Positions 17,091 through 57,772 of a stretch of DNA of 64,000 bases are shown here, one piece after another (position 1 is the stretch's first letter; the number at the start of each line of letters is the position of its first letter). The notes beneath the pieces are model-generated. The model had not been told where the DNA came from and searched no databases. It saw nothing but the letters and a program-made list of their open reading frames with translations. The stretch covers positions 2,170,001 to 2,234,000 of the forward strand of contig NZ_JACCAA010000001.1 in NCBI RefSeq assembly GCF_013408415.1, in the 5' to 3' direction. The stretch is from Nocardioides daedukensis (GTDB taxonomy: Bacteria; Actinomycetota; Actinomycetes; Propionibacteriales; Nocardioidaceae). The position numbers and the translations under genes are program-made.

Positions 17091-17437
17091 CAGCGCGCCC
17101 AATCCGAGTGCCGGACCACGGCGTCGACCGCGTGCTCGGCCTGGTTGAAGGCGACCTCGACGAGCTCGAGCGCGTGCTGGTTGGCCAGGCTGTAGAAGAC
17201 CCGGTTGCCGCCCTGGCGTGTGCTCACCACGCGACTCATCCGCAGCTTGGCGAGGTGCTGCGAGACGGCGGCCTGGGACTTCCCGACCTCCTCGGCGAGC
17301 ACGCCCACCGACTGCTCACCGTCGCGCAGGGCGAGCACGATCCGCACCCGGGTGGCGTCGGCGAGCAGGGAGAAGATCTCGACCGCCACGGGCAGGTGCG
17401 CGTCCAGCTCTTCATCGGTATATGCATGCATGCGCAT
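17090..17437 (-). CDS. ArsR/SmtB family metal-sensing repressor
   Basis: A winged-helix repressor of about 115 residues: LADATRVRIVLALRDGEQSVGVLAEEVGKSQAAVSQHLAKLRMSRVVSTRQGGNRVFYSL is the classic ArsR core. His and Glu residues in the last helix (NQHALELVEVAFNQAEH) fit a Zn/Co/Ni-type alpha-5 metal site; there is no Cys-box of the arsenic type. Three starts are possible: GTG 17479, ATG 17437 and ATG 17431. I prefer 17437 because a palindromic operator spans 17419-17440 and would otherwise lie well inside the gene. It is coupled to the CDF exporter. Confidence 0.85.
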   Translation of the reverse strand: MRMHAYTDEELDAHLPVAVEIFSLLADATRVRIVLALRDGEQSVGVLAEEVGKSQAAVSQHLAKLRMSRVVSTRQGGNRVFYSLANQHALELVEVAFNQAEHAVDAVVRHSDWAR

Positions 17438-17440
17438 ATA
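17419..17440. promoter_or_regulatory. putative ArsR operator overlapping the arsR start codon
   Basis: A 22-bp imperfect palindrome with perfect 7-bp arms TATATGC and GCATATA separated by ATGCATGC. It is strongly AT-rich compared with the surroundings. Size, symmetry and composition resemble known ArsR/SmtB-family operators. It covers both ATG candidates of the regulator, which points to autorepression and a leaderless or near-leaderless transcript. Confidence 0.6.
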
Positions 17441-17476
17441 GTGACGTAGGCGCGCGCCTCCCCGCAAGGGGTTGGA

Positions 17477-17739
17477 CACCTAACTGATGGGTGGGCGGTG
17501 TGCTCGAGGGCTCGCACAACCAACTGATGCCTTGGGCGAACTGCTGGAGGGGTCGCTCACCTAACTGATGCTTTGGGCCCCGTCAGAGGCACTTTCGGGC
17601 CCCAAATGCATCAGTTAGCTCGACTCCGGCTGCCAACGCATCAGTTAGGAACACGCCGTCCGACGAACCCATCAGTTGGTGCCGACCGAGCAGCCAACCC
17701 ATCACTTAGCGCCAGCGCAGGCACCAACCCATCAGTTAC
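17477..17739. repeat. array of eight AACTGATG/CATCAGTT units in converging orientation
   Basis: This roughly 260-bp stretch has no gene. On the plus strand three units of ACC(T/C)AACTGATG occur, with AACTGATG starting at 17482, 17522 and 17563. They are followed by five units in the opposite sense starting at 17609, 17639, 17670, 17700 and 17730 (CATCAGTTAG, CATCAGTTAG, CATCAGTTGG, CATCACTTAG, CATCAGTTAC). The second group has a 30-31 bp period. Units are only about 10-13 bp and spacers are unrelated. It lies between the 3' end of the MFS gene and the arsR promoter. Confidence 0.8.
17561..17618. terminator. strong stem-loop at the centre of the repeat array
   Basis: The arm at 17561-17581 pairs with 17597-17618: CTAACTGATGC then TTTGGGCCCC against its complement, with one mismatch and a single bulged A around a 15-base loop. 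It sits downstream of the minus-strand MFS gene and upstream of arsR, so it could stop MFS transcription. There is no clear U-run on either strand, so factor-independent termination is only a possibility. Confidence 0.5.
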
Positions 17740-17742
17740 CGA

Positions 17743-19263
17743 TCAGACTCGACCACGCAGGATCCGCGCCGCACCGAGAGCCACTGCGAAGCAGAGCACG
17801 CTCGCAATGGCTGCGGTGAGGGTCACCCCGGAGTCGAAGGCGTGGCCCGCGGAGGCGAGCAGGGCATCGGCCGAGGCGGTGGGCAGGTCGGCGGCGACCT
17901 CGACGGCACCGCCCATGGTGGCGCGTGCCTGCTCGGCTGCGCTCTCACCGACGGTCACCGGCACCGAGATGCCCTGGCGGTAGGCGAGGTTGAGCAGGCT
18001 TCCCAGCACGGCGGTCCCGAGCACGGCGCCGACCTCATAGGCAGTCTCGGAGACTGCGGAGGCGGCCCCCGCCTTGGCGGGAGGAACCGCGCTGAGCGCG
18101 AGGTCGTTGGAGACGGTCTCGGCCATTCCGACGCCCGCGCACACGACCACGAAGCCGACGAGCAGGGCGAGGCCCGAGCCGGTGTGGCCCAGGGCTGAGA
18201 CCACCAGATAGCCGATGGCGTTGAGCAGCACCCCGACGACCATCACCGGCAGCGCGCCGAAGCGGCGTACGAACGGCACGGCGGCCAGTCCCAGCACGAC
18301 CGTGACGACCAGTCCGGGCACCATCATCAGCGCCGCCTCGAGGGGCGAGTGGCCGGCGATCAGCTGCAGGTGCTGGGCGAGGAAGTAGATGAAGCCGACC
18401 AGCGCGAAAATGCTGACCAGGTTGACCATCAGCGCGACCGAGAAGATCGGGTTCGCGAACAGGCGTACGTCGAGCATCGGGTTGCGGCGCACCAGCATCC
18501 GGCGCACGAACGCGATGCCGCAGGCGAGACCGAACGCGGCGATCAGCATCGTGGTGCCGGTCGGGCCGTGGGTGGCCAGCTCCTTGATCGCATAGACCAG
18601 CGCGCCCAGCGCGCCCGTGACCAGGGCGATGCCGGCCGGGTCGATCGGGCCGGGCTCGGGGTCGCGGGACTCCGGGACCAGCCGCGGCGCCAGGACGAGC
18701 AGCGGGATCAGCACCGGCACCGCGATCAGGAAGATCGAGCCCCACCAGAAGTGCTGGAGCAGCCAGCCGCCGACGATCGGGCCGAGCGCCGCCCCGGCGG
18801 AGAAGCCGGACATCCAGATCGCGATGGCGGTACGCCGCTCCGTGGCGTCGGTGAAGATGTTGCGGATCAGGGAGATCGTCGCCGGCATCAGCATGGCGCC
18901 GAAGATGCCGAGCAGGGCACGGGCCACGATCAGCCATCCGGCGGAGGGGGCGAAGGCGGCCAGGGCGGAGACGGCGGCGAAGCCGATGCCGCCGGTGAGC
19001 AGGATCCGGCGGCGACCGAACCGGTCACCCAGGGAGCCCATCGTCACCAGCAGGGCGGCCAGCACGAGCGGGTAGATGTCGATGATCCAGAGGATCTGGT
19101 TGCCGCTCGGAGCCAGGGATCGCGACAGCGAGGGGACCGCGAAGCTGAGCGCGGTGTTGTCGATCGAGACCAGCAGCACCGGCAGCATGAGCACGCCAAG
19201 AGCGGCCCACCGCGCGCGGCGGGTGAGCTGCTCGGGAGCGAATTCGAGCTGGTGGATGGTCAC
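17743..19263 (-). CDS. MFS drug efflux transporter, DHA2 (14-helix) family
   Basis: A 506-residue MFS protein. Signatures are LLVSIDNTALSFAVPSL in helix 1, LGDRFGRRRILLTGG (motif A) and GFSAGAALGPIVGGWLL (motif C of drug:H+ antiporters). Length and hydrophobic profile fit the 14-helix EmrB/QacA group. The start is the GTG at 19263; the longer open frame would run through the operator and the divergent regulator's start. It is divergent from a TetR gene with a palindrome between them, so TetR control is likely. The last repeat unit of the array ends 3 bases from its stop codon. Confidence 0.87.
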   Translation of the reverse strand: MTIHQLEFAPEQLTRRARWAALGVLMLPVLLVSIDNTALSFAVPSLSRSLAPSGNQILWIIDIYPLVLAALLVTMGSLGDRFGRRRILLTGGIGFAAVSALAAFAPSAGWLIVARALLGIFGAMLMPATISLIRNIFTDATERRTAIAIWMSGFSAGAALGPIVGGWLLQHFWWGSIFLIAVPVLIPLLVLAPRLVPESRDPEPGPIDPAGIALVTGALGALVYAIKELATHGPTGTTMLIAAFGLACGIAFVRRMLVRRNPMLDVRLFANPIFSVALMVNLVSIFALVGFIYFLAQHLQLIAGHSPLEAALMMVPGLVVTVVLGLAAVPFVRRFGALPVMVVGVLLNAIGYLVVSALGHTGSGLALLVGFVVVCAGVGMAETVSNDLALSAVPPAKAGAASAVSETAYEVGAVLGTAVLGSLLNLAYRQGISVPVTVGESAAEQARATMGGAVEVAADLPTASADALLASAGHAFDSGVTLTAAIASVLCFAVALGAARILRGRV

Positions 19264-57205: not shown

Positions 57206-57772
57206 ATGACTCGCTCGATGAAGGACAAGATGCTCGCCGGTGAGCACTACCTCGCCGACGATCCCGAGCTGATCGAGATGCTCACGACCAGCCAGGGCCA
57301 CATGGACCGCTACAACGCGACGGCGTCCTCGGACCATGAGGGGCAGCGCGCGATCCTGGTCGAGTGGCTCGGGTCGGTGGGCGAGGGCGTCAGCATCCGG
57401 CCGCCGTTCCGGGTGGACTACGGCACCAACATCCACGTCGGCGACCGGGTCTTCGCCAACTATGGCCTGGTCGCGCTGGACTGCTGCGAGATCACCATCG
57501 GCGACGACTGCCAGTTCGGGCCCAACGTGCAGATCCTGACGCCGCTGCACCCGTTGGAGGCCGGGCCGCGGCGCGACAGGTGGGAGTACGCCGCCCCGAT
57601 CAGCATCGGCGCGAACGTCTGGGTCGGCGGTGGAGCGATGATCCTGCCTGGCGTCACCATCGGCGACAACGCCGTGATCGGGTCCGGGTCGGTGGTCACC
57701 CGAGACATCCCGGACAACGCCCTGGCGGTCGGAAACCCGGCCCGGGTGGTCAGGGATCTGGCCGAGTCCTGA
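57206..57772 (+). CDS. maltose/sugar O-acetyltransferase, hexapeptide-repeat family
   Basis: A 188-residue left-handed beta-helix acetyltransferase of the Maa/LacA/NodL group. It has an N-terminal helical MKDKMLAGEHYLADDPEL segment, then hexapeptide repeats with PFRVDYGTNIHVGDRVFANYGLVALDCCEITIGDDCQFGPNVQI, catalytic His in PLHPLEAGPRR, and GGGAMILPGVTIGDNAVIGSGSVVTRDIP. It acetylates sugar hydroxyls from acetyl-CoA. It is preceded by a short AT-poor gap and followed 25 bp later by a same-strand gene. Confidence 0.92.
   Translation: MTRSMKDKMLAGEHYLADDPELIEMLTTSQGHMDRYNATASSDHEGQRAILVEWLGSVGEGVSIRPPFRVDYGTNIHVGDRVFANYGLVALDCCEITIGDDCQFGPNVQILTPLHPLEAGPRRDRWEYAAPISIGANVWVGGGAMILPGVTIGDNAVIGSGSVVTRDIPDNALAVGNPARVVRDLAES

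Follow-up and report, generated by a model that had tools for sequence, protein, structure and literature searches.

To our knowledge, repeats of the REPIN type are tied to HUH transposases. REPINs are short inverted doublets with a characteristic spacing that occur in many extragenic copies, and their partner gene, which encodes a RAYT (REP-associated tyrosine transposase), is itself flanked by the repeats, as set out in two accounts (PMC3116915, PMC3733652). A further group, the CGTC REPs, comprises high-copy palindromic repeats that are described as going without a dedicated transposase (PMC3733652). Here we compare these systems with an array of short repeated units in the actinobacterium Nocardioides daedukensis, which lies in a 64,000-nucleotide window of the genome (contig NZ_JACCAA010000001.1, positions 2,170,001 to 2,234,000).

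A first-pass annotation of the window had described three AACTGATG octamers facing five CATCAGTT-type octamers between a gene for an MFS transporter and arsR. All eight octamers were recovered at their positions, and Pfam identified both neighbouring genes (Table 1). The 30–31 bp period proposed for the array held in the five-unit group, which advances in steps of 30, 31, 30 and 30 bp, but not in the three-unit group, where the steps are 40 and 41 bp, so that the 30-bp phase of this array is one-sided. The centre measures 46 bp (17563 to 17609). The spacers, which had been called unrelated, are indeed not alike by eye. The final octamer ends at 17737 and the MFS frame at 17743. Searching the window with AACNCATCAGTT at up to two mismatches returned 13 matches, of which eight are the array; shuffles gave a mean of 4.5, and 0 of 100 reached 13. 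A BLAST search of plasmids with the array returned one short chance match only. Where arsR starts (window 17410–17449), we also observed an AT-rich inverted repeat that surrounds TATATGCATGCATGCGCATATA and is, perhaps, the arsR operator (ArsR/SmtB pattern).

Table 1. Features of the array in the window, its neighbouring genes and examples of arrays with a 22-bp period. Positions are those of the window unless a locus is given.
Feature	Position	Strand	Remarks
Left unit 1	17482..17495	-	Matches site CCAANNCATCAGTT on the - strand with one mismatch; AACTGATG octamer starts at 17482
Left unit 2	17522..17535	-	40 bp from left unit 1; AACTGATG octamer starts at 17522
Left unit 3, inner doublet unit	17563..17576	-	41 bp from left unit 2; AACTGATG octamer starts at 17563
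Core doublet, 54 bp	17563..17616	.	Octamer starts exactly 46 bp apart
Right unit 1, inner doublet unit	17603..17616	+	One mismatch; CATCAGTT-type octamer starts at 17609
Right unit 2	17633..17646	+	30 bp step; CATCAGTT-type octamer starts at 17639
Right unit 3	17664..17677	+	31 bp step; CATCAGTT-type octamer starts at 17670
Right unit 4	17694..17707	+	30 bp step; octamer at 17700 is CATCACTT, one mismatch
Right unit 5	17724..17737	+	30 bp step; CATCAGTT-type octamer starts at 17730; adjoins the MFS stop codon
MFS transporter gene, PF07690	17743..19263	-	3' end abuts the array; host gene, outside the element
ArsR-family regulator, PF01022	17090..17437	-	Downstream neighbour; host gene, outside the element
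22-bp-period array examples	L075:4693-4960; also L076, L078, L082		

The N. daedukensis genome, a single contig of 3.81 Mb, contains 135 matches to the longer unit at up to two mismatches, against 14 for a reversed control. Octamer pairs exactly 30 bp apart numbered 62 in this genome (control, 1), and converging doublets at exactly 46 bp numbered 20 (control, 0). The genome-wide excess of units, 30-bp pairs and 46-bp doublets refutes the chance reading, under which the octamer would occur at background rate and unphased: the window array is real. In stretches chosen around unit clusters among the matches listed, we found at least 16 arrays, including the one in the window, and these contain all 20 doublets reported by the whole-genome search. 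Each array is laid out as units facing one way, an inner doublet and then units facing the other way, and three arrays carry two or three doublets each. Octamer starts were exactly 46 bp apart in 20 of 20 doublets, and 74 of the 83 same-strand steps measured 30 bp (60) or 31 bp (14). A profile of 123 called units from the genome yielded the consensus CCAANNCATCAGTTR over a site of 14–15 bp, and flanking positions carry little information, which fits the earlier suggestion that the short unit and its phasing, rather than a long repeat, are under selection. One of the 123 called units, CAGCAGTT, is off phase (steps of 17 and 24) and is probably no unit. The window array excepted, spacers are by eye often alike within an array and different between arrays, and their likeness within arrays suggests tandem growth in place. 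The doublets are asymmetric by eye, one arm reading mostly CCAACC and the other mostly CCAA[AG]G. The arrays that we found are all confined to the middle half of the contig (G000:C1:1144733-2958441; 1.14–2.96 of 3.81 Mb). Three CGTCAGTT units in 30-bp steps at G000:C1:3389521-3389588 may belong to a degenerate or a different array family.

According to gene calls made with a simple codon model, the genes on either side converge at ten of the at least 16 arrays and run in the same direction at six, and no array separates divergent genes; of the remaining adjacent gene pairs at the array loci, 8 were convergent, 66 codirectional and 24 divergent. In all six codirectional cases the stop codon is closer to the array than the next start is. 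An outer unit overlaps a gene end in four arrays, and the array farthest from a gene end lies 112 bp from the nearest stop. We saw no shared function among the neighbouring genes by eye. At the 3' end of gpmA (L043, L062-L072), N. daedukensis carries two doublets of the 30-bp type, and two relatives, G164 and G241, carry units of a 22-bp type that is described below; by eye, neither array type was seen at the other nine loci, of which L068 and L070 have other inverted repeats.

The transcript of the window array folds better than 200 of 200 shuffles (z -5.75), and side effects on mRNA are therefore possible. We measured pairing along the stem in the 20 doublets, in which the fixed octamer positions pair by definition. 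At two of 33 position pairs (0 and 27), pairing was more frequent than with shuffled partners (p 0.015 and 0.025). Elsewhere along the variable part of the stem it did not exceed the shuffled level, and at positions 9, 10, 15, 16, 18, 24 and 26 it fell below that level, a deficit that is due in part to asymmetric doublets lying in both orientations. The near absence of base-pair covariation argues against a selected RNA hairpin. A scan of the window array returned no terminator-like site or promoter, and positions 17400–17800 gave no Rfam match up to E 5. Three readings of the array had been offered at the outset, a multi-site protein-binding platform, an mRNA 3' structure and a remnant palindromic element. 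The scarcity of covariation weakens the second of these; the first and third gained support as readings, and they seem to be parts of one thing.

The doublet, searched at up to one mismatch in 294 genomes of the family, occurred 20 times in N. daedukensis; four other genomes had one one-mismatch match each and the rest had none. The first-pass annotation had proposed that absence from close relatives in which the flanking genes are conserved would mark the array as chance. This was borne out in part, as no array of this sequence was found in the 293 other family genomes, but the repeats within the N. daedukensis genome contradict chance. Taken together, the many copies within one genome and their absence from 293 relatives point to a lineage-private element, and the array sequence looks private to the N. 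daedukensis lineage. The exact two-unit pattern was also absent from genome_contigs and viral_contigs, sets that may omit the N. daedukensis genome itself.

Outside the window, two arrays (2723109-2723284 and 2724344-2724548) bracket a gene on the minus strand at G000:C1:2723266-2724258, which we call the partner gene. The former array overlaps its 3' end, and its start is uncertain because the frame remains open into the second array. The partner protein of N. daedukensis has no Pfam match of note and aligns at 29% identity with the product of a gene that lies between arrays of a second family. The genus sample of 196 genomes contains homologues of the first clade (E <= 1e-20) in 102, mostly one per genome. 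Of eight homologues in N. daedukensis, two are bracketed by repeated arrays, four more distant ones (L097, L098, L099 and L100) adjoin strong single palindromes of other sequence, on both sides for L097, and two have no palindrome nearby. Pfam matched DUF559 weakly in six of 24 first-clade members (best 0.013), and one PADLOC AbiEi model matched ten of 24 homologues at values up to 0.1 (best 1e-8). The two N. daedukensis modules have four immediate neighbours, which encode a methyltransferase, a glycosyltransferase, a peptidase and an Mce-type protein, and Pfam detected no nucleotidyltransferase (AbiEii) among them. Gene contexts vary, with 29 first-clade loci falling into 14 groups and 27 second-clade loci into 12 by single linkage. 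No first-clade homologue was found on plasmids at 1e-10. We also searched for the RAYT-type HUH Y1 transposase family PF01797; it was absent from the N. daedukensis genome, and the same search was positive in five of 14 control genomes.

The second array family is built from the unit CGAACNNGCANNNNTTG in 22-bp steps and lies beside genes in N. daedukensis and some close relatives. The CGAACNNGCANNNNTTG pattern matched 90 times in N. daedukensis, 139 times in G164, 96 times in G241 and 39 times in G228 (control 23), with most other genomes near control. Among the matches listed, N. daedukensis units read mostly CGAACC[TG]GCA and G164 units mostly CGAACGGGCA. Matches to the 22-bp unit span 0.23 to 3.70 Mb of the N. 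daedukensis contig. In N. daedukensis and G164, CGAACNNGCANNNNTTG-type arrays lie on both sides of a gene that matches AbiEi and DUF559; the two proteins score over the curated cut-offs for AbiEi_1 (PF09407) and DUF559 and under the cut-off for REase_MTES_1575. Homologues of this second clade (E <= 1e-40) are present in 138 of 196 genomes. Of 26 loci outside N. daedukensis with sufficiently long stretches, 25 had 22 bp as their best local period (lags 16–39) and one had 21 bp, and in windows 900 bp farther out the six strongest lags were all multiples of three, as in coding DNA. The motifs of second-clade arrays vary between loci; it is thus the protein clade that the period tracks, and the lineage that the motif tracks. 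We found one second-clade homologue on a plasmid at 1e-15, in an unannotated stretch from Nonomuraea gerenzanensis, and none in phages at 1e-8. At L074:2867-4114, a transposase-like gene (IS256/Mutator type by eye) sits between facing 22-bp groups and was apparently inserted there. An isolated one-mismatch match to the 22-bp unit in the window (57501–57518) is probably due to chance.

Reading the flanks of 17 homologue loci by eye, we saw a palindrome of about 50–65 bp on both sides of nearly all of them, with a species-specific sequence. We then scored palindromes of 46–68 bp automatically at 28 usable loci outside N. daedukensis: 27 of 56 flanks reached 13 or more of 14 arm pairs, and 0 of 56 control windows taken 1.1–1.4 kb away did so. 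At least 12 of 14 arm pairs were present on both sides in 16 of the 28 loci, a level also reached by 13 of 106 control windows. Adding 26 loci from genome_contigs (24 Nocardioides, one uncultured Nocardioidaceae and one Cellulomonas avistercoris) brought the count at 13 or more arm pairs to 46 of 108 flanks, against one of 106 control windows; the two sets share species, with four identical pairs found and more seen by eye, and the control windows are probably coding and the flanks intergenic, so that ordinary terminators may inflate the flank count. The left flanks of L118 and L125, for example, resemble an ordinary terminator, and the palindromes at L102, from the genus sample, and L132, from Nocardioides terrae, are identical. 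Several homologue flanks show converging rows in 30/31-bp steps, and the best local lag was 30 or 31 in eight of 28 loci. Outside the Nocardioidaceae, AAGTGGTCAC-type inverted repeats can be seen by eye to either side of the C. avistercoris homologue (L141); its automatic scores of 11 and 12 of 14 are not above control.

The two sides of a locus usually resemble each other. Flanking genes placed seven loci in one group (single linkage), and within these loci the arms on the left matched those on the right at 12, 12, 12, 12, 11, 8 and 7 of 12 positions; the low values belong to L122 and L104, where, judged by eye, the automatic search had settled on a different inverted repeat or come up empty on one side. 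The 42 comparisons between loci ranged from 5 to 11 of 12, and 34 of them fell at 6–8. Left and right sites that lie nearly 1 kb or more apart thus tend to change together, as is expected if one protein reads both. We rely on the arms alone for this comparison because whole flanks include coding DNA and gave an unclean result with 14-mers (11–14 between loci versus 13–14 within loci). A doublet pattern derived from homologue flanks, TGGCGGC-N35-GCCGCCA, was present in 57 of 196 genomes, 17 of which contained 7 to 73 copies (threshold, at least five occurrences); the reversed control never exceeded four per genome. The partner gene is present in 16 of these 17 genomes, the exception being G189, which has 10 TGGCGGC doublets and no partner at E <= 1e-20. 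In 52 TGGCGGC doublets, the arms agree at arm position 9 in 17, and several other families form perfect stems. We sampled 400 kb (9–12%) of each of four other partner-positive genomes; a single cognate doublet turned up in each of two of them and none in the other two. Set beside the TGGCGGC counts, these samples indicate that array amplification is variable.

The predicted structure of a homologue suggests what kind of protein the partner may be. We modelled the N. terrae homologue (L132) from 24 sequences, with a mean pLDDT of 85.7 and a pTM of 0.83. In VIA-align comparisons, residues 175–274 aligned with the catalytic domain of I-Bth0305I (Z 10.9, rmsd 2.6, 92 aligned), residues 173–276 with DNA-bound Vsr (Z 8.7, rmsd 2.9, 98 aligned) and residues 34–170 with AbiEi (6y8q_D; Z 10.4, rmsd 3.2, 119 aligned). 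Residues 35–170 also matched chains of the MenT1 toxin system (Z 7.2–7.7), which makes the AbiEi-like reading of the N-terminal half non-exclusive. Foldseek returned no PDB match for the model at E <= 0.001, and a profile search of PDB sequences with the first clade returned none up to E 1. E178, D210, E221, D223 and H227 are invariant in the 24 sequences, and these acidic and histidine residues are putatively catalytic. The homologue is thus predicted to consist of an AbiEi-like domain joined to an endonuclease fold of the Vsr/EDxHD type.

Considering the arrays and the bracketed genes together, we propose, with a probability of roughly two in three, that they form a REPIN/RAYT-like element, selfish or domesticated, whose partner is a Vsr-type nuclease; its binding, cutting and movement are what we infer. 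The window array would be a dispersed copy relying on a dedicated nuclease whose gene lies elsewhere in the N. daedukensis genome. The AbiEi-like part of this protein would bind every site in double-stranded DNA, with the sites on one face of the helix, as 30 bp is about three turns and 22 bp about two. Bound copies could then stack in two rows that converge from either side on the 46-bp centre, and there paired nuclease domains would nick or cut. Through repair or conversion, new places would acquire a copy of the site array or of the entire bracketed gene, and copies would persist at gene 3' ends, where they do least harm. We lean slightly towards a wider claim as well, namely that there is an undescribed class of site arrays and nucleases in Actinomycetota, in which an AbiEi–Vsr protein and its phased arrays replicate as a unit, the clade sets the period (22 or 30/31 bp), rapid co-divergence sets the sequence, and each lineage carries its private genome-wide set at gene 3' ends. 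In a search of the open-access literature, we found no description of these arrays, or of AbiEi/DUF559 genes bracketed by repeats.

The arrays might instead be an architectural or regulatory platform, on which the AbiEi-like protein acts as a silencer, insulator or transcription road-block, the nuclease is a leftover or rarely used, and the flanking arrays are autoregulatory. AbiEi antitoxins bind repeats and regulate their own operon, which would suit such a role, as would the preference of the arrays for convergent gene pairs (ten of at least 16, with none divergent) and a phasing on one helix face that favours cooperative binding to double-stranded DNA. We nevertheless regard this as unlikely, because the putative catalytic residues are invariant in 24 homologues, arrays flank the partner gene on both sides, its 3' end included, and the lack of any array of this sequence in 293 family genomes would be odd for a conserved role. 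Another possibility is self-marking for defence, in which the nuclease would be a defence or toxin-like enzyme that the chromosomal arrays titrate or restrain. AbiEi belongs to abortive infection systems, and the match of one PADLOC AbiEi model to ten of 24 homologues points the same way; we consider the idea very improbable, however, given that no nucleotidyltransferase lies beside the two N. daedukensis modules and that two of the four other genomes, at about 10% sampled, were without dispersed copies. The weakest candidate is a structured RNA or bidirectional terminator, with selection on hairpins that facing units would form in 3' transcripts: the arrays do adjoin gene 3' ends and the window transcript folds well, but the doublets scarcely covary, the terminator and Rfam searches were negative, and the bracket arrays of the 22-bp clade are direct tandem rows rather than hairpins, which together leave this reading the least credible of all.

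If the REPIN/RAYT-like element with a nuclease partner is real, it would be a nuclease-based counterpart of REPINs and would imply that the strategy arose more than once. It would also explain the lineage-specific repeats at gene ends in this genus, which otherwise seem to be unrelated oddities. Because motif and protein seem to co-diverge while the period stays fixed in each clade, the family offers a natural experiment on how DNA-binding specificity changes, and a co-diverging set of motifs and proteins might yield predictable site-specific nucleases.

Compared with the AbiE type IV systems, the homologue shares an AbiEi-like fold in its N-terminal half and has AbiEi family matches, but a nuclease-like domain is joined to it and no nucleotidyltransferase lies beside the two N. 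daedukensis modules. The predicted C-terminal fold and the conserved acidic and histidine residues resemble those of Vsr and of EDxHD homing endonucleases such as I-Bth0305I; unlike those enzymes, the partner goes with site arrays rather than with one cleaved target, and cutting here is a predicted activity. The arrays are like CGTC REPs in being palindromic, of high copy number and without an HUH partner, and they differ in repeat sequence and in having a candidate partner that is not an HUH enzyme. The closest likeness in organization is to REPINs and RAYTs: the N. daedukensis doublets are extragenic and inverted, have a fixed 46-bp spacing and occur in many copies, and the partner gene and many of its homologues are bracketed by repeats. 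On the defining feature of the RAYT system, however, it departs: the partner is not an HUH Y1 transposase and has instead a predicted AbiEi-like domain and a Vsr-type nuclease fold. In contrast to REPINs, the unit consensus in N. daedukensis has no GTAG or CGTC tag, the sites extend outwards in 30/31-bp or 22-bp phase, and the doublets show almost no covariation. If any pair of repeat and partner gene is counted as one kind, this is a REPIN/RAYT variant; judged by enzyme, phasing and motif turnover, it is separate.
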